64,000 bases of DNA from Leucobacter sp. 7(1) (GTDB lineage: Bacteria; Actinomycetota; Actinomycetes; Actinomycetales; Microbacteriaceae): contig NZ_FUID01000026.1 of assembly GCF_900163635.1 (NCBI RefSeq), positions 1 to 64,000 on the forward strand. Direction: 5' to 3'. The translations under genes and the position numbers were made by a program. The notes below the pieces were generated by a model that made no database searches, was not told where the DNA came from, and saw nothing but the letters and a program-made list of their open reading frames with translations. Below are positions 6,797 through 61,773 of this stretch, piece after piece (positions within the stretch are counted from its first letter, which is position 1; the number at the start of each line of letters is the position of its first letter).

Positions 6797-7861
6797 ATGA
6801 CCGAGAAGAACACCCGACTCCATATTCAGGTTGCGGGCGACACCGCACGCGAGCTCGGCGTTGCCCGCGGCACCGCGCTACGCGAGAGCCTCGCAGAGGC
6901 GGCAGCGAGCTACGAAGGCCTGTTCCGCATGGTGGGCGTGAGTGAAGAGCGCGAACGCGCGGGCGTCGCGGCAGTGCTGGAGACCCTCGCGGAGTGGCGG
7001 CCCGACGTTGTCGCGGAGCTCGAGGGCATCGCGGAGGGGTCTGGCGTGAGCCTCGCACAGGTTGTGGCGCTCAATGCCCGCACCGAGATCCTTGCGCTGG
7101 GCAACCGCGGAGGCCACGAGTGCTCCACGGTGACGTCTGTGATCGACGGGCAGCGCCTCGGCGTGCAGACCTGGGACTGGCACATCGAGTTCGACCCGTT
7201 CTGGCACACGCACGAGGTCACGGGCCCGGGGTACCGCTTTGTCGGGCTCACGGAGCAGGGCATCGTCAGCAAGATCGGGATGAACGAGGCGGGGCTCGGA
7301 CTCCACTTCAACATCCTGGGGCACCGCGAAGACCGGCCCTCCGGTGTGCCCATGCACGTGCTGTCGCGCGTTGTGCTCGCGGAGTGCGCGACGATCGCGG
7401 AGGCGCTCGAGCTGATTCGCAGTGCCCCGATCACCTCGTCATCGGCGTTCACAATGGTGGACGCGACGGGGGCGGTATCGGTCGAGATGAGCCCCGCCGG
7501 GGTATTCCCCATCCCCGAAATCGCGGGTTCCGTGCAGCGCACGAACCACTTCCAGCACGAGACCCCGCTCGCGAGCCAGAAGAGTGCGCTCTACGAGCCG
7601 GACTCCTCAGAGCGCCTGGCACTTGTGCGCGAGCGGCTTGCTGGCGGGCTGCCCACGGCGTCCGCCGCGATGGTCGAGCTGCTGGTCTCCGACGAGACGC
7701 AGCCGCCGCTCACCTGTGTGGCTGACATGAGCAAGGAGTTCGGCGAGCGCTGGGCCACGCTCGCGACGGTGATCACCGACCCGGGCGCGCACTCGATCCG
7801 GATCCTTGACGGTATGCCGACCGACGCGGCGACGGGGCACTGGCGGACGCTCGTCGCGTAG
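6797..7861 (+). CDS. C45-family Ntn-hydrolase (acyltransferase/amide hydrolase)
   Basis: A 354-residue protein of the peptidase C45 family, which includes isopenicillin N acyltransferase, the insect N-beta-alanyldopamine hydrolase and bacterial carcinine hydrolases. The likely autocatalytic nucleophile is Cys109 in GGHECSTVTS, followed by the family segment LGVQTWDWHIEF. Such proteins cleave themselves before this Cys and then hydrolyse or transfer acyl groups on amides. It lies 106 bases after the last ABC gene, in the same direction, so it probably acts in the cytoplasm on the imported compound. I used the ATG at MTEKNTR; the open frame extends upstream without recognisable homology. Substrate unknown. 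Confidence 0.82.
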   Translation: MTEKNTRLHIQVAGDTARELGVARGTALRESLAEAAASYEGLFRMVGVSEERERAGVAAVLETLAEWRPDVVAELEGIAEGSGVSLAQVVALNARTEILALGNRGGHECSTVTSVIDGQRLGVQTWDWHIEFDPFWHTHEVTGPGYRFVGLTEQGIVSKIGMNEAGLGLHFNILGHREDRPSGVPMHVLSRVVLAECATIAEALELIRSAPITSSSAFTMVDATGAVSVEMSPAGVFPIPEIAGSVQRTNHFQHETPLASQKSALYEPDSSERLALVRERLAGGLPTASAAMVELLVSDETQPPLTCVADMSKEFGERWATLATVITDPGAHSIRILDGMPTDAATGHWRTLVA

Positions 7862-8210
7862 GGGCTGGGGTAGCGGCTGTGGAAGCGGCGGGGAAGTGGC
7901 GCGGTTGTGCTCCGCTTCCCAGCCTCCCTCCCTCGCCCCGCCTGCCGGCCTCGCCCCACCGGCCTGCCTGCCTGCCCGCACCCGCGCCGCCCCCCTGAGG
8001 CAAATTATCTTGCCCGAGCGATACTTTGCGATATTTCCCTCGCTGTGGATAATTTCCCTCGTGTAGGGCGGGGTGAGCGATCGGGAATGGGGAGGTGCGA
8101 GTGCGCGCGAGTGCGGAGGGCGGCAGGGTGCGACCAAGTGCAGGGTGCGCCCAAGTGCAGGGCGCGACAGGGTGCGGGGCGCTTGTCCCTCGCCCCGCCC
8201 TGCGCGATAG
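7862..8210. other. Gene-free convergent intergenic stretch
   Basis: It lies between the C45 gene and the convergent amidohydrolase. It holds a C-rich low-complexity run (about 7910-7995), one copy of the 69-bp dispersed element (7996-8064), and short tandem copies of a GTGCAGGG-type unit (about 8130-8185). I see no credible coding frame. Confidence 0.6.
7996..8064 (+). repeat. 69-bp dispersed element, copy A
   Basis: The element starts TGAGGCAAATTATC and ends GGATAATTTCCCTCGTGT, so its ends form an imperfect inverted repeat. An internal ATATTTCCCTCG repeats the right-end motif. It aligns without gaps to copies at 12353, 23429 and 42437, and lies between two convergent genes. Confidence 0.75.
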
Positions 8211-12223: not shown

Positions 12224-12340
12224 GCAGCCGCACCCGCAGCCGCAGCCGCACCCGCTGCCGCGCCCGCGCCCGCTGCCGCAGCCGCAGCCGCAGCCGAGCC
12301 AGACGACACCCGCTGCCTCCCCCGGCCGTGCTCTCCAGCG
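12224..12340. repeat. GC-rich simple-sequence tract
   Basis: This non-coding tract is built from GCAGCC and GCACCC hexamers with minor variants. The same hexamer forms a perfect 13-unit array inside dnaX at 45283. It sits just after the LacI gene and just before a 69-bp dispersed element. Confidence 0.6.
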
Positions 12341-12352
12341 CCGCGCCCGCCA

Positions 12353-12421
12353 TGAGGCAATTTCTCGCACACGAGGCGTTTTCCGCGGAGAACGCATCGT
12401 CGTAGATAATTTCCCTCGTGT
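12353..12421 (+). repeat. 69-bp dispersed element, copy B
   Basis: It aligns without gaps to copy A. The ends are best conserved (TGAGGCAA and AGATAATTTCCCTCGTGT), while the centre has diverged. It again lies between two convergent genes. Confidence 0.75.
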
Positions 12422-12457
12422 TGGGTGCGTGGCCCGGGGTGCCTCCTCTTATGCGGC

Positions 12458-23387: not shown

Positions 23388-23428
23388 CCCCTGCTTGGCC
23401 AGCCCGGCGCAACAGGCTCCGCCCAACA

Positions 23429-23497
23429 GGTGGCATTTTCGCCTACCCGAGCGAGATTCCCCGATAATTCGGTGGGGCCAGATAAATTGCCTCGATG
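23429..23497 (+). repeat. 69-bp dispersed element, copy C
   Basis: It aligns without gaps to the other copies through CCCGAGCGA in the left half and AGATAAATTGCCTCG at the right end. It again lies between convergent genes. Confidence 0.65.
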
Positions 23498-23509
23498 AGG
23501 CGGGGTGCG

Positions 23510-42379: not shown

Positions 42380-42436
42380 CCCGCGCGGGTGCTGGCCCAC
42401 CCGCCGGGCGCCCGCGCCGGTCCACCCCGCCTAAAC

Positions 42437-42505
42437 TGACGGAAATTATCTAGCACGACGGATTCTTCGCGGAATTTCGCTCACTTTGGGGAAAATGCAT
42501 CAGGG
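42437..42505 (+). repeat. 69-bp dispersed element, copy D
   Basis: It aligns without gaps to copy A, with strong identity in GGAAATTATCT, TTCGCGGAATTTC and the CTCACTTTGG section. This is the only copy between codirectional genes (ackA and dnaX). Confidence 0.7.
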
Positions 42506-42576
42506 TAGGTGAGGGCGGCCGCGTGGGTTCGGCCGCTCGGGGGCGATTGTCGGGGGTCACGGGTAGCATGGACCCC

Positions 42577-50798: not shown

Positions 50799-50964
50799 TC
50801 CGGGGCCCTGCCTCCGGGGCCCTGCCCTGCCCATCCAATGCGCGACAGCGCACCCCTGAAACTCCAGAGCCCAGAGCCCAGAGCCCAGGCCCCTGGCCCC
50901 TGGTCCCTGGCCCCAGGCCCCAGGGACCAGAGCCCAAAGCTTAGAGCCCAGGCCCCAGGCCCCG

Positions 50965-51022
50965 CCGAGATCGTGATTGCGCACATTCCTGGGATGGCTG
51001 AGGTGCGAAATTGAGTTCTCGG
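50965..51022 (+). repeat. 58-bp palindromic element, copy 1
   Basis: The left arm CCGAGATCGTGATTGCGCAC pairs with the right arm TGCGAAATTGAGTTCTCGG. Flanking GCCCC bases extend the stem outward. Confidence 0.8.
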
Positions 51023-51092
51023 CGGGGATGGAGTGATGGAGTGCTCACAGGTACCCTCGGCGGAGGCCAATGCTCAGGGCACTCCAACTCCT

Positions 51093-51150
51093 CCGAGATC
51101 GGGATTGTGCACGTTCCTGGCTTGGGTGAGGTGCGAAATCGGGTTTTCGG
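51093..51150 (+). repeat. 58-bp palindromic element, copy 2
   Basis: It has the same length and layout as copy 1, with arms CCGAGATCGGGATTGTGCAC and GTGCGAAATCGGGTTTTCGG. Confidence 0.8.
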
Positions 51151-51190
51151 CTGCTTCCCTGCTTCCCTGCTTCCCTGCTTCCCCGCTTCC
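51151..51190 (+). repeat. Tandem CTGCTTCC array, five units
   Basis: Four identical 8-bp units and one with a single change follow palindrome copy 2 directly. Confidence 0.85.
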
Positions 51191-51274
51191 CTAGTCTCCC
51201 TGCGGGTGAGGTACTCGGGGTGCTCGCAGGTACCCCGGGCGCAAACCAATACAAGGGATGTGTTCCAGGCCCCG

Positions 51275-51332
51275 CCGAGATCGTGATTGCGCACATTTCT
51301 GGGCTGGCTCAGGTGCGAAATTGAGTTCTCGG
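51275..51332 (+). repeat. 58-bp palindromic element, copy 3
   Basis: It is nearly identical to copy 1 over the whole 58 bp. Confidence 0.8.
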
Positions 51333-51358
51333 CGAGGATTGGGGCATAGCCGCCCTTC

Positions 51359-56459: not shown

Positions 56460-56527
56460 ATTGCCTAGTGGTGCAATGCAGCCCCGTCCCGCCCTGCCGC
56501 GCCCGCGTCCCGCACCTTGATCCTGCG

Positions 56528-56585
56528 CCGAAAGGTCAATTTCGCACATCCCGAGTGGGGAAAAGACGCAAAATTGCGCTTTCGG
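56528..56585 (+). repeat. 58-bp palindromic element, copy 4
   Basis: The arms CCGAAAGGTCAATTTCGCAC and GACGCAAAATTGCGCTTTCGG pair. It has the same total length as the copies at 50965-51332 and shares ATT-CGCACAT and AAATTG, so it is a diverged member of that family. Confidence 0.65.
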
Positions 56586-57336: not shown

Positions 57337-57410
57337 GGCTGAGTAGCTCAGCTGGTTAGAGCGCACGACTCATAATCGTGAGGTCGCGGGATCGAGCCCC
57401 GCCTCAGCTA
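57337..57410 (+). tRNA. tRNA-Met (CAT anticodon, elongator type)
   Basis: The acceptor GGCTGAG/CTCAGCT and anticodon stem CACGA...TCGTG enclose a CAT anticodon. The T-arm is CGGGATCGAGCCCCG. From the base after the anticodon onwards, 48 bp recur exactly at 61691-61738, so this gene is the attachment site of an integrated element and stays complete. Confidence 0.95.
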
Positions 57411-57421
57411 CAGAGAGTCAC
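57374..57421 (+). repeat. attL: left copy of the 48-bp direct repeat
   Basis: It begins AATCGTGAGGTCGCGGGATC and runs through the 3' half of tRNA-Met to AGAGAGTCAC. It is identical to 61691-61738. Bases outside differ (CAT before and AACG after, against CGG and GAAA at the right copy). Confidence 0.92.
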
Positions 57422-57682
57422 AACGAAACCCCCTCTTCGGAGGGGGTTTCGACGTTTACGCGGGGTTGCCGATTCAATCGGCTGGCGACCAATGAGGTAG
57501 TCGAGCGTGACGCCAAATGTGTCCGCGATGGCCACCACTTCGTCCAGGGTCCACCTGGTTACGCCGTTTACCTTGTTGCTCAGTGTGGGGGCCGATAGGC
57601 CAGCTTTCAACGCGATTTGCTTTTGCGAGACGCGACTACCGAACCTCAGGTGGTTGACCCGAAGCGACACGTGGTCGTACAT
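57404..57682 (-). CDS. XRE-type helix-turn-helix protein
   Basis: A 92-residue protein. Residues about 10-68 match a Cro/CI-type helix-turn-helix (VSQKQIALKAGLSAPTLSNK, then GVTRWTLDEVVAIADTFGVT). The C-terminal 20 residues are Arg-rich and are encoded by the terminator hairpin and the attachment repeat, so the stop codon lies inside tRNA-Met. The reading end may thus be an accident of integration. No good ribosome site is seen. It could be the element's regulator. Confidence 0.65.
   Translation of the reverse strand: MYDHVSLRVNHLRFGSRVSQKQIALKAGLSAPTLSNKVNGVTRWTLDEVVAIADTFGVTLDYLIGRQPIESATPRKRRNPLRRGGFVVTLCS
57425..57450. terminator. Hairpin after tRNA-Met
   Basis: GAAACCCCCTC pairs with GAGGGGGTTTC around a TTCG loop. 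It lies just inside the island and overlaps the 3' end of the XRE-like frame. Confidence 0.75.
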
Positions 57683-57727
57683 GTTTGATTCAAGCTGCGG
57701 CTCACTGATGCCCCCAGATTACTTGAG

Positions 57728-58133
57728 GGGCTCATCGCAAATGAGGGTGTAAAGATAGGCGGCGGAGTTCCCTGCGCCCCCCCCAACTAGGCCCACAGCC
57801 ACGAGCTGCCCATCCCGCATCGAAACTCGAAACCCTTCGAGAGGTTCAGATCGTTCCTTACTGGAACGGCGCTACCCAACACAGGCGATCCGGAATCGCG
57901 AGTGTGGCCAGGAGCCAGAACCTCGAGAGAGAAGCTCGAAGACGGGCCACTTTGGTTGCGTGTTGCGCGGCAACACGCAACCAAAACGGCCCTTCACGAA
58001 TTCATCTCGGATCACGGATCGCCGCTGGCGGCCACAACCAAGTGACCAGGCGCGCTGGCAAGAACCCACAGGCCCCCTGAGCGGCCTTCCTTGAGCTCCC
58101 GTGCAGCTCTACACCCTCAAATGCGAAGAGCCC
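57728..58133. mobile_element. Inverted-repeat pair, ISL3-like ends (MITE-like, 406 bp)
   Basis: GGGCTCATCGCAAATGAGGG (from 57728) and the reverse complement of the stretch ending 58133 (GGGCTCTTCGCATTTGAGGG) are near-identical 27-bp ends facing outward. GGCTCTTC is characteristic of ISL3-family ends. No transposase frame lies between them, and I see no target duplication. The interior holds a strong hairpin and no credible gene. Confidence 0.6.
57951..57985. repeat. Perfect 16-bp stem with 3-base loop
   Basis: TTTGGTTGCGTGTTGC, loop GCG, then its exact complement. It lies in the middle of the ISL3-like inverted-repeat unit. There is no T-run on either side that clearly marks a terminator. 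Confidence 0.8.
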
Positions 58134-58135
58134 GA

Positions 58136-60769
58136 TTAACTCATCGCCGACCGCCACCTCCTGCCGAGGAGGAGCACCGCGGCACCGAGGAGGAGGACAC
58201 CCACCCCGAGGACACCAATGCCAGAGCTCTCGGCACCCGTACGCGCGAGCTTGCCGCTGGTACCGGAACCACTCTGCTGCGTGGCGGGGCTGTTCCCGGC
58301 GCCCTCTTCCTCACCAGTGCCGATACCTGCAGAAGCCATTACGATTTCGACAGTGGTGGAGCTGGGCAGCAGGTCAAGCCTCTCGGGGGCGAAGACGAGT
58401 TCGATCTGGTGTGACCCGACGGAAAGCGCAGGAAGAGTGACCGAACCAGCACCGGCTTCAACGCCAAAGGGCAAGTCGAGGGGCTTACCATCTTCGAAGG
58501 CCTGCACGGAACCATCGACTCCTACCGACTCAAGGGCCGCGAACACTGGAACTTCGGCCACCTCGCCCGCTGCCACTGAGTAGCGGGTCTGACTGGCCCG
58601 CACGCTCGTTTCAAAGCCTCGTACCTCGAAGGTGACAGGTTCGCTCTCGGAAGGCGCGAAACCGGGTCCTGGCACAAACCGAGCCGTGATGGTGTGCCGG
58701 CCCACTGGCAACTCGCCGACCTCGAGCGAGAACGCCGACATGGCATTGTTCAGCCCCTCTTCCGCTGTCTCGCAGTCGAGATCGACCCCCTCAGTGTCAC
58801 AATCCAGCCCGGCAGGGATCGTGAAAAGTTGCTCTTCCGGCTCGCCCTCGCTTGCGACAACCTCGATCGCGCCGCGCGGATCGGTTGTGTCGGTGTCGTC
58901 TGCGTTGGTGACGGTGCCCGCGAAGAGGATCGTACCGTCAGCGCTGATATCGAGGTTCGAGAGATTCAGGACCGTACCCGTGGCGATAGTCGCGACGCTG
59001 ATGGGCAGCGGCACAGAATCTGACGGCAAGAAGTACGCGTCATCATCCCCGAGATACGAGACCGTCAAGGTTTGTGCCTCAGGCGGAATTACCGCGTCTG
59101 CGAATACCGCGAGTCCGCTGTCGTTGAGCTCGGTAAAAGCGACTGGCTGCCCATCAGATTCGAGCTCGGCAAAGCCGCCGACTGTGGCGCTTGAGGAAGT
59201 GACCTGCGCGGTGATCCTCGCCGGAGTGAACGCCTTCAGCGAATCGGGAACCGAGACAAATTCGGTCGCGGTCGCGGTCGGGGTGGGAAGCTCCGGGGGA
59301 GTCAGATCATCATCAGTGCTGAGATCATTTCCGGTGTCGACGCTATCGGTAGCACCGACGCCATTGGTGTCATCGGCACTATCGAGCTCATTGGTGACTT
59401 CGCCATCTTCGAACATGGCAGTGGGGCCGGGGAAGGTAACTCGCAGTGTGGAGGTCGAGCTCGTGAGCCCCGGCTGCTCTGGAGCAAATTTGATACGGAA
59501 TTCGTGTTCGCCCGGGCTGAATCGCCCACTGGGATGCCGCAAAAAGAGGTTCGCGTGCCCGTTGGTCGCACCGGTGACGTTGTCGTTCGTGTTGCCCTCG
59601 GCGAGCTTCTGATCTCCCTCAGTGACGACGAAAGTGCCTCGTGTTCCGACATAGGAGGTGCGGGCCGTGCTGGCGAACACCTTCACCCCAATGCCGACGT
59701 CGCTCAGTGGGGTGCCCTCTGCGGTGAACGCGACGAGAGACTTGCCAGGCACCACGACGTATGAGGCGGTCGTCGATTCAAAAAAGTTGGAATTCATGCG
59801 CACGAGCCAGGTGGCAGTCTTATCGTAGGTAGAAGCGCGACCTTTTGCGTCACGCACGCCTGCCGCGGTCCAGGTCATGCCGGCGCCGCCGCCGCCGCCG
59901 CCGCTCGAACCCCAGAACTTCTGACCGCCGCCGCCGCCCAGACCACTCGCTGGCCAACCGCCACCGCCTGCGCCACCGCCACCGCCGTCGGTGTTGAGGC
60001 CCGCGGAGCTGCCCGCCTGACCCACCGATTTGTACCCCTTTGCCTGAGCGTTGTCAATGCCAGCGAGCCCACCGGCGCCGGGGTGCGCTCCGCCGCCGGA
60101 CCTGCCGTTACCGGAAGTGGGTTCTGAGGGGGCGTAGGAAGTGCCGCCCATACCGCCGAGATTTGTGACGCTCACACTCTCGCAACGCCCGTCCCCAAAG
60201 GTTGAGCATTGCTTCTTGTTCTCGCTGTGTGTGGCACTGCCGCCCGCACCGCCTCCACCACCGGCCACCGCGACGAGTGTGCCGTTGAGCTTCACGGCTG
60301 CGGCTCCGCCTCCTCCTCCTGCGTGTTTGCCGGTGATGCTGCCCTTGCCGCCGGTGCCGCCGCTCACAAAACCCTTACCGCCGTCTCGTTCATCCTTCTT
60401 GCCGGTGGCGCTCGTCGAGGCGTAGACCGTGAGCACGTCGCCGGGCGCAACATCAAGCTCGACCGAGAAATCGGCACCCAGACCACCGGAAGACCCTTTT
60501 CCGGCCCCCTGGCCACCGGTGCCACCGCGCAGCGCGACCACGACAGTGCTGACTCCGTTCGGCACGCGCCAATCGGTGCCTGAAGGATCGGTGAAGCCGT
60601 AGATGGCATCGGTCGGATTGATGACGGCCTGTGCCGGGGCGGGCGCAACCAGAGTTACAACACTGATGGCGAGTGCCGCTGCGGTAGACAGTGCGGCCAG
60701 CACGCGCGAAGTGCGGCGAGGCGTGCGGTGAATGGAGGTGTCGGCGTCGTCACCGAAAAGGTTGGTCAT
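58136..60769 (-). CDS. Glycine-rich, LARTG-anchored surface protein
   Basis: An 877-residue protein. It has a signal peptide (cleavage likely after APAQA), then a Gly-rich domain (about 60-300) with runs such as KLNGTLVAVAGGGGGAGGSA and LGGGGGQKFWGSSGGGGGG. Ig-like beta-sandwich repeats follow (about 330-770), separated by an acidic Asp/Thr stretch. The end is the sorting signal LARTG (841-845), a hydrophobic helix and a basic tail. LAxTG is the class E sortase motif. TATACT lies 6 bases before this ATG (leaderless); a start at 60796 is less likely. The stop is 3 bases from the ISL3-like repeat. It is the main cargo of the island, perhaps an adhesin. Confidence 0.85.
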   Translation of the reverse strand: MTNLFGDDADTSIHRTPRRTSRVLAALSTAAALAISVVTLVAPAPAQAVINPTDAIYGFTDPSGTDWRVPNGVSTVVVALRGGTGGQGAGKGSSGGLGADFSVELDVAPGDVLTVYASTSATGKKDERDGGKGFVSGGTGGKGSITGKHAGGGGGAAAVKLNGTLVAVAGGGGGAGGSATHSENKKQCSTFGDGRCESVSVTNLGGMGGTSYAPSEPTSGNGRSGGGAHPGAGGLAGIDNAQAKGYKSVGQAGSSAGLNTDGGGGGAGGGGWPASGLGGGGGQKFWGSSGGGGGGAGMTWTAAGVRDAKGRASTYDKTATWLVRMNSNFFESTTASYVVVPGKSLVAFTAEGTPLSDVGIGVKVFASTARTSYVGTRGTFVVTEGDQKLAEGNTNDNVTGATNGHANLFLRHPSGRFSPGEHEFRIKFAPEQPGLTSSTSTLRVTFPGPTAMFEDGEVTNELDSADDTNGVGATDSVDTGNDLSTDDDLTPPELPTPTATATEFVSVPDSLKAFTPARITAQVTSSSATVGGFAELESDGQPVAFTELNDSGLAVFADAVIPPEAQTLTVSYLGDDDAYFLPSDSVPLPISVATIATGTVLNLSNLDISADGTILFAGTVTNADDTDTTDPRGAIEVVASEGEPEEQLFTIPAGLDCDTEGVDLDCETAEEGLNNAMSAFSLEVGELPVGRHTITARFVPGPGFAPSESEPVTFEVRGFETSVRASQTRYSVAAGEVAEVPVFAALESVGVDGSVQAFEDGKPLDLPFGVEAGAGSVTLPALSVGSHQIELVFAPERLDLLPSSTTVEIVMASAGIGTGEEEGAGNSPATQQSGSGTSGKLARTGAESSGIGVLGVGVLLLGAAVLLLGRRWRSAMS

Positions 60770-60895
60770 CGTCCAAGTATAGACGCATGTAGGCATTCGG
60801 GGGCATAGTGGGAGTGCGGAGTTTGGTCAAGATCTCCCCAAGATGATGCTTCCTACACATCTATCCAAAAGACCTGGGTCTGGTGCACGACGGTC

Positions 60896-61144
60896 CTATA
60901 CGGGGTGTGCTGAAGCTTTGGTTGAGTCCAGGGTCTCCGCCGCCAGTGCGACGACATCCTTCATTAGGGTCTCGAACTCGATGGGGGTCAGTTTCCCGAG
61001 TCTGCGTTGCCGCCTCTCGCGATGGTAGATCCCTTCAATCCACTGGACGATCGCGAGACGCAGCTCGAGCCTGGTGGCCCACCGGCGCTCGGGCAAGAAC
61101 ATAGCCGAGGTCGGCGATGTCGTCTGAGAGGACCCGGTACCCAC
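60896..61144 (-). pseudogene. IS3-family transposase OrfB, C-terminal fragment
   Basis: The last part matches the end of IS3-type DDE transposases (ELRLAIVQWIEGIYHRERRQ, then LTPIEFETLM). The catalytic core is missing. It is separated from the OrfA remnant just upstream by a short frame-broken segment reading RELHEDDPEGGYRVLSDDIA. The element is a deletion derivative. Confidence 0.75.
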
Positions 61145-61183
61145 CCTCGGGGTCGTCCTCGTGCAGTTCCCGGAGCACCCCGA

Positions 61184-61504
61184 TCAGATGCGCCTCCTCC
61201 GCACCGCCGCGGCCATCTCGCGGCGCTCATCAGGATCGGTCGATGGGGTCATCCCATGCGAGCGGAACCGGTCGTCTCTCACCCACGTCTGCAGCGCGGT
61301 CTTCGAGATCCCCAGGTCCCTGCACGCCGTCTTCTGCGACGACCCCGCAGTGACCATCGCCACGGCGTCTCGTGTGAACTCATCGGAATTGATCTTCGGC
61401 ACGACTGCCATACTTCCAGCGCACTCCATACCCAGGAAGTATGCGGTCATGGACTCAACCGAAACCTCAGCAGACCCCAATGCCTGGTGACCTTCGTCTG
61501 TCAC
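61184..61504 (-). pseudogene. IS3-family transposase OrfA remnant
   Basis: The N-terminal helix-turn-helix of IS3 OrfA is recognisable (VPKINSDEFTRDAVAMVTAG and ACRDLGISKTALQTWVRDDR). The true start is probably at VPKINS or just before it. The usual coiled coil and the programmed frameshift into OrfB are lost. With the fragment at 60896 it is one decayed IS copy. Confidence 0.75.
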
Positions 61505-61690
61505 CCCGCGAACGAGTCACCCCAAGAACTGATCTTTCCCTGCCCCTGAAGCGAACAAGATCAGGCTCGCGCGTTGGGGATCGTTCGTGTGCTTGCACAA
61601 CGTTGGCTCTTCCATTCGGCCAAGTCAACTGTGGGCAAGGAAGGGTCAACTTTTCGTGCTGAAAGTGGCGAATTGGCTTGGGTGAATCGG
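61505..61690. other. Right end of the island without genes
   Basis: I see no coding frame with support. The stretch lies between the IS3 remnant and the right attachment repeat. An integrase gene would be expected near one end but is absent. Confidence 0.5.
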
Positions 61691-61738
61691 AATCGTGAGG
61701 TCGCGGGATCGAGCCCCGCCTCAGCTACAGAGAGTCAC
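61691..61738 (+). repeat. attR: right copy of the 48-bp direct repeat
   Basis: It is identical to 57374-57421 and holds the 3' half of tRNA-Met without the 5' half. The hairpin right after it (61738-61773) was probably the original terminator of the tRNA gene before insertion. Confidence 0.92.
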
Positions 61739-61773
61739 GAAAATACCCACGGTCTTGGTCGGGGGTATTTTCG
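61738..61773. terminator. Hairpin after attR
   Basis: CGAAAATACCC pairs with GGGTATTTTCG. It follows the tRNA fragment and also ends the convergent gene at 61793, so it is probably bidirectional. Confidence 0.75.

Follow-up and report, generated by a model that had tools for sequence, protein, structure and literature searches.

The stretch of Leucobacter sp. 7(1) DNA analysed here, 64,000 nucleotides long and referred to below as the window, carries four copies (A to D) of a dispersed palindromic element. Copies A, B and C lie between convergent genes, as an earlier note on this sequence had reported, and copy D lies between tandem genes. Pfam matches identify the neighbours: copy A is flanked by genes for an AAT-family acyltransferase (+) and an amidohydrolase (-), copy B by those for a LacI-type regulator (+) and a luciferase-like monooxygenase (-), copy C by a bPH_2 gene (+) and a YqaJ-domain gene (-), the strand of the latter being settled by its Pfam match, and copy D by the genes for acetate kinase (+) and the DNA polymerase III gamma/tau subunit (+). 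The elements, all of which were training copies for the covariance model described below, and the matches to their end motif are as follows.

7985 to 8072, + strand: copy A, F-F-R-R element, covariance-model E 1.3e-17, training copy
7997 to 8009, - strand: left outer motif of copy A, unit F1, end-motif match
8048 to 8060, + strand: right outer motif of copy A, unit R1, starting 51 bp from the left motif
12342 to 12429, + strand: copy B, F-F-R-R element, covariance-model E 1.2e-19, training copy
12405 to 12417, + strand: right outer motif of copy B, unit R1, end-motif match
23418 to 23505, + strand: copy C, F-F-R-R element, covariance-model E 5.2e-13, training copy
23481 to 23493, + strand: right outer motif of copy C, unit R1, end-motif match
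42426 to 42513, + strand: copy D, F-F-R-R element, covariance-model E 4.5e-16, training copy
42438 to 42450, - strand: left outer motif of copy D, unit F1, end-motif match

An Rfam search of the window returned just three tRNAs and the SRP RNA, and the elements had no match above the gathering score. Short tandem repeats crowd the spacers near copies A and B (7858-7982, 8123-8168 and 12224-12300), and similar flanks were seen by eye at a number of other copies. Two further sets of repeats were also noticed. A sequence 89% similar to the 3' part of the tRNA-Met gene at 57337-57411, with one long stretch of identity, is found again about 4.3 kb downstream, at 61684-61748. The interval contains a gene coding for Ig-like domains (58136-60769, - strand), and synteny with the relative L. 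chromiireducens subsp. solipictus TAN 31504 (genome G029) breaks within 57337-61748. This region looks like the remnant of an integrated island, with the tRNA repeat arranged as at an integration site. The second set follows a prephenate dehydratase gene. Its three copies, each of about 75 bp, lie at 50955-51339 and have ends that form imperfect inverted repeats; relative to the first copy, the other two show 73% and 95% identity. A fourth copy, on the opposite strand at 56526-56550, is more divergent. The set is possibly another palindromic family.

The element had been described as a 69-bp unit in four gap-free copies with imperfectly inverted ends. The copies are real, since at 88 bp they align with one another without gaps, and the one gap that appears when longer flanks are included falls outside the element. 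The length, by contrast, was set too short, because the symmetry reaches about 10 bp beyond the 69-bp unit on either side. When 16 copies were compared over 108 bp, 485 Watson-Crick matches were counted about one axis and 231-279 when the axis was slid by 1 or 2. The consensus ends of the 88-bp element are CGCCC...GGGCG, terminal inverted repeats of the kind used to recognise MITEs and IS-derived elements, and the symmetrised half consensus is CCCGCCCAAACCGAGGCAATTTATCTAGCCCGAGCCATTTTCCG.

Each half also contains a direct repeat. In 166 arms from 83 copies (94 copies minus 11 that were poorly symmetric in the register used), identity within the arm at an offset of 19 bp was 0.446, compared with 0.253 in shuffled arms, and at no other offset from 8 to 29 did it exceed 0.303, the value reached by each of the runners-up, 18 and 20. 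The corresponding z of 37 is a ranking rather than a probability, as copies and arms are not independent. The best conserved columns of the left arm (3, 6, 13-17, 21, 22, 25, 32, 33 and 40) include five pairs that are 19 apart (3/22, 6/25, 13/32, 14/33 and 21/40). Each half is therefore made of two direct 19-bp units, and the element is 88 bp long, two-fold symmetric, and composed of four such units in F-F-R-R order (F1-F2-R2-R1). The right-end motif that had been noticed inside copy A is indeed present, but it is one of the four units and not a peculiarity of that copy.

A search of the host genome for the end motif GATAATTTCCCTC, with up to 2 mismatches allowed, gave 38 occurrences, compared with 0 for the reversed control, and several of these occurrences are partnerless single arms that resemble chance matches. 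Within the window alone, the 13-mer gave 8 matches at up to 3 mismatches where 4.6 were expected, a count reached by 11 of 100 shuffles and not significant; the signal lies in the fixed geometry and in the whole genome rather than in the window count. A covariance model, the check suggested in the earlier note, was built over 88 positions from 15 copies. In the host it gave 94 matches at E<=10, which merge across strands into at least 48 sites, the 15 training copies among them; the figure is a lower bound, because scoring covered 150 of the 718 candidates from the first look. E was 1e-3 or better at 44 of the 48 sites, and the weakest four (C83:46730, C106:46052, C69:61982 and C67:60-117) are doubtful. 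All 94 matches span model positions 1-88, one of them, on C67, within only 58 bp, and separated ends were thus seen in none. In G029, which lay outside the training set, at least 91 matches at E<=0.01 marked at least 46 sites (best E 7e-18). In searches of many genomes, the model of this family (family R1) matched 14 of 54 Leucobacter genomes at E<=0.1 and 6 of 398 genomes of the Microbacteriaceae at 1e-3, four of the latter in other genera with one site each. As few candidates were scored per genome in the multi-genome searches (82 and 77 for the genus, 11 and 10 for the family), these counts are minimum values, and a failure to match is weak evidence of absence.

Nine of the 48 host sites are found no more than about 550 bp from the end of a contig (e.g., C38:46825, C72:30770, C83:46329, C84:55883 and C92:134), where chance would place one or two (212 contig ends x 550 bp, or ~3% of the genome). 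Hairpins or adjoining tandem repeats may break the assembly at the elements, which may thus mark assembly break points.

The positions of the sites were mapped against gene orientation, another step proposed earlier, using gene calls from a simple codon-usage method that had been trained on the window. The host sites comprised 23 convergent, 14 tandem and 1 divergent gap, 1 site inside a weak ORF, and 9 sites at contig edges, at all 9 of which the visible neighbouring gene points toward the element. The 46 sites listed for G029 comprised 26 convergent, 15 tandem, 2 divergent and 3 edge sites. Convergent gaps thus hold 23 of the 38 bounded intergenic sites in the host and 26 of 43 in G029, compared with 16% of intergenic bases, a background taken from two contigs only, C17 of the host and C7 of G029. 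The binomial probabilities are 6e-10 and 5e-11, respectively, under the assumption that sites are independent, and most sites are common to both species. The elements are therefore intergenic, 3' of genes and enriched between convergent genes, as REP elements are.

Many dispersed copies, a patchy occurrence in the genus and a consensus specific to the family are features that a non-autonomous mobile element of the MITE or REP type would display, its units being binding sites for a transposase and its copies having no present function in the host. Multi-unit inverted ends also resemble the ends of some transposons. Comparison with G029 bears on this directly. An element was found in G029 at the matching place (within 450 bp of the predicted position) for 41 of the 48 host sites, and high mobility is therefore disfavoured. 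These 41 host sites correspond to 35 distinct G029 elements, since six G029 elements each serve two host sites; the counterparts of copies A, B and D are at C7:12950, C7:17258 and C7:51584. The comparison covered the element-bearing loci of G029 and its contig C7, and when C17 was compared with all of C7, 7 of 8 host sites were shared. Among the seven unmatched sites, copy C is the one shown to be absent: the orthologous G029 gap has no element, and its aligned flanks lie 59 bp apart, compared with 132 bp here. This presence in one species and absence in the other is what mobility would produce, and the empty gap is too diverged to show a clean insertion. No clear target-site duplication was seen in the alignments inspected.

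The earlier suggestion of a REP element moved by a transposase elsewhere is not supported for a REP transposase. At E<=0.001, Y1_Tnp (PF01797), the single transposase family searched, was detected in 0 of 54 Leucobacter genomes, while a control search found it in 5 of 14 named genomes. Both this result and the sites matched in place in the relative led us to reject mobilisation by a RAYT. In G020 and G021, genomes that carry the second family described below, no lone ends of the sort that would bound a transposase gene in an autonomous element were seen among the matches listed, all arms listed there being in close pairs or inside full-length model matches; the host covariance model is unable to detect widely separated ends. 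Neither one family R1 copy nor one copy of the second family matched the phage collections, nor did the latter match the plasmid collections.

For 37 of the 41 matched pairs (those with core identity >=0.55), the cores averaged 72% identity without gaps and the 40-bp flanks, also compared ungapped, averaged 38%, whereas unrelated copies averaged 55%, with a 95th percentile of 67%. Identity was above 67% in 25 of the 41 pairs and 0.67 or less in 16; since the latter are no more alike than the top 5% of unrelated copies, it is their place that argues for descent, and these pairs count in favor of mobility. At most aligned sites the flanks are scrambled between the species. When 31 one-to-one ortholog pairs were compared column by column, identity was 87.6% at the 26 high-information columns, 68.0% at 60 medium columns and 41.9% at 2 low columns. 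Slow change at the high-information columns is what would be expected from selection on contact bases, and could instead reflect conversion between copies; neutral mobile copies would lack such column-specific constraint unless conversion causes it. Weighing these points, we consider a mobile element with no host function quite unlikely. Many elements have been retained at their sites across related Leucobacter species and are thus probably functional, and the abundance of intergenic copies, the convergent bias and the column constraint agree with the view that selection acts on a unit whose length is constant and whose sequence drifts.

The two arms of the element also change together. In the 35 of 41 pairs whose identity was 60% or more, 52 of 170 double changes preserved pairing, a count that includes G029 elements used twice, and the corresponding values in slid registers were 5/103, 10/104, 6/112, 9/115, 16/106 and 9/97. 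In the set of 83 copies, Watson-Crick pairing was seen in 2290 of the 3652 symmetric cells, compared with 2098 +/- 22 in shuffles. For the first 15 copies the result was mixed: 1 of 500 shuffles attained their covariation score, but 273 of 500 attained their count of pairs with changes on both sides. This co-variation is the main fact that simple protein binding does not predict. Formation of a hairpin or cruciform, or mutation templated by the palindrome, does predict it and may contribute. In the extreme, the element might be an ancient palindrome that hairpin-templated repair keeps symmetric by copying arm onto arm, with no selection at all. A copy at C8:327806 of G029 (L137), which at 78 bp is 10 bp below the model length and is by eye almost perfectly symmetric, suggests that arms have been corrected against each other. 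Mutation of this kind, however, leaves unexplained the 19-bp direct repeat, the near-constant length amid indel-rich flanks, the slow change at certain columns and the location bias, and as a full account it appears very improbable.

Arm co-variation is also expected if the element acts as RNA, with a transcribed hairpin that terminates transcription bidirectionally and protects the 3' ends of mRNAs; selection would then act on pairing. The location 3' of genes, including the orientation of the neighbouring genes at the contig edges, agrees with this, as does strong folding in some copies: four copies picked for their apparent symmetry form near-perfect long hairpins (z -9.4 to -11.6), and the fold energy of one copy (L103) is -70.1 kcal/mol. 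In the window, however, the folding z was -5.9 for copy B and -3.5 for copy A but only -1.1 for C and -0.8 for D, no better than shuffles. The strand of the mismatches was also examined, counting G-U against A-C on the transcribed strand, where selection on a transcribed hairpin should leave G-U in excess. At tandem sites the counts were 66 and 61 (24 of 29 sites, poorly paired ones being dropped), at the 47 convergent sites 101 and 121, and at 9 unoriented edge sites, some of them near copies of one another, 39 G-T and 17 A-C, an uneven split. As G-U shows no excess over A-C at the oriented tandem sites, function as DNA is favoured over function as RNA. The T-run typical of intrinsic terminators was absent from the 20 bases downstream of 29 tandem elements (74 T in 580 bases). 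Canonical terminator hairpins beside convergent gaps were found at 3 of 42 gene ends with an element and 12 of 164 without, too few in both classes to discriminate. Neither constant length nor periodic conserved bases are needed by a hairpin. Taken together, the strand, T-run and folding results lean to a function at the DNA level, and a conserved RNA terminator is not favoured; action as RNA seems to us unlikely. The bidirectional terminator proposed earlier thus keeps the strong folding of some copies and loses the T-run, the G-U signal and the folding of C and D.

A separate sequence family with the same plan, family b, was found in Leucobacter and in some other Microbacteriaceae. Its single arm gave 76 matches in G020 and 48 in G021, compared with 0 for the reversed control, and many of these arms occur in pairs 54 or 55 bp apart. 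Identity at the 19-bp offset was 0.531 versus 0.257 in 48 arms from 24 copies, and these 24 copies comprised 10 convergent, 9 tandem and 3 divergent sites, 1 edge site and 1 inside site. At 1e-3, the family-b sequence model matched 25 of 54 Leucobacter genomes, a number of them through just a few weak matches, and at 1e-4 it matched 18 of 398 genomes of the Microbacteriaceae, across 8 of 85 genera. Ten of the loci in other genera were read (L338-L347): 9 showed, at the position of the match, a palindrome 54 bp long or longer, and in 6 the best internal offset was 19, in some cases marginally. Homology between family R1 and family b was considered and set aside, because their best ungapped profile similarity was not above that of shuffled columns (p = 0.28, 2000 shuffles); the two families share their geometry, and common descent is not claimed. 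On one side of the family-b element at three G020 loci (L298, L299 and L300), the outer 19-bp unit is repeated in tandem four to six times, counting the unit of the core, a pattern like that expected from slippage or site amplification. At G021 L308, three family-b elements lie in one gap at 229-bp spacing, element and spacer being tandemly duplicated together.

We also examined 28 loci of other Leucobacter species that carry an ortholog of the monooxygenase gene beside copy B. In G001, G025 and G050, a long palindrome of unlike sequence lies 3' of this gene and has 19 as its best internal offset, for which the frequency in unrelated palindromes has no systematic null. In G005, G008, G023, G034 and G049, palindromes of 56-72 bp at the same side lack the 19-bp period, and the pattern is therefore far from universal. 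The palindromes of G020 and G006 (L203 and L208) sit 5' of the gene, and the one in G020 is an example of the 19-bp period away from the 3' side. A DNA search with the G001 palindrome turned up a clear second copy and a weaker match, both in G001, the other hits being short and at chance level, so that an abundant family of this palindrome is not supported. One could extend these observations to a class of Microbacteriaceae elements set by geometry, with four 19-bp F-F-R-R sites over about 80-90 bp at gene 3' ends and at least two families of unlike sequence, each of which would be recognised by a co-evolving DNA-binding protein of its own and would bound convergent transcription or organise the chromosome as a hitherto unseen system. 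We think this extension unlikely as a whole.

Several known systems invite comparison. BOX elements of streptococci are modular hairpins in which the copy number of a unit varies, and the present element is likewise a modular hairpin with a unit of variable copy number; here, it is the outer 19-bp unit that multiplies, at some family-b loci of G020, and the core itself does not vary. Integron attC sites combine variable sequence with a constant palindromic plan and paired sites in each arm, between RYYYAAC...GTTRRRY ends. The likeness to the element extends to all but the last feature, as no consistent GTTRRRY ends were seen by eye and the copies are dispersed rather than in cassette arrays. 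ERIC elements, which we take to be the same as the enterobacterial unit RU-1, are imperfect palindromes of about 100 bp with tens of intergenic copies, and to our knowledge no transposase is known for them. By this general description the element resembles ERIC; it differs in sequence, in host group and in its internal 19-bp direct repeat. RU-1 is given as a 127-bp enterobacterial unit (PMC2759123). REP elements are palindromes of 20-40 bp with a GTAG or CGTC end tag, located mostly between convergent and tandem gene pairs (PMC3733652). The element is like REP, BIME and REPIN sequences in being dispersed, intergenic, palindromic, mostly in convergent or tandem gaps and species-specific in sequence; it differs in having four 19-bp units over 88 bp and CGCCC...GGGCG ends in place of the tag, and in the two findings that set it apart from REP/RAYT systems, the lack of a Y1 transposase in the genus sample and the retention of most sites across two species. 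Among the titles and abstract openings listed on Microbacteriaceae and Leucobacter repeats, actinobacterial palindromes and REP/BIME sequences, none describes the element.

We read the element as a REP/ERIC-like class that is new, and most probably as an array of four putative protein-binding sites acting at the DNA level at gene 3' ends; of the roles named in the earlier note, that of a putative protein-binding unit fits best. Periodic conserved bases, fixed geometry, retention between species and the lack of a strand signal are the reasons for this reading. Each 19-bp unit would be a putative contact site for a chromosomal DNA-binding protein, and one element would present two pairs of such sites facing each other at a place reached by two converging transcription complexes. 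Because of this convergent location, the likeliest effect would be to end or separate convergent transcription, with the element serving as a roadblock, boundary or topology site. Spread of the family probably took place in an ancestor, and selection would now maintain it. Our tentative preference, held at somewhat short of an even chance, is therefore for a dispersed and largely vertically kept 88-bp extragenic array of putative protein contact sites with a likely roadblock, boundary or topology role in convergent transcription.

Palindromes scattered through bacterial genomes are commonly attributed either to past RAYT transposition or to a role as RNA hairpins. The Leucobacter elements form an abundant set of palindromes that has neither signature and is retained while the surrounding spacer scrambles. 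The four-site, 19-bp plan common to families of unlike sequence offers a testable case of what may be a DNA-binding system at the convergent gene ends of actinobacteria.
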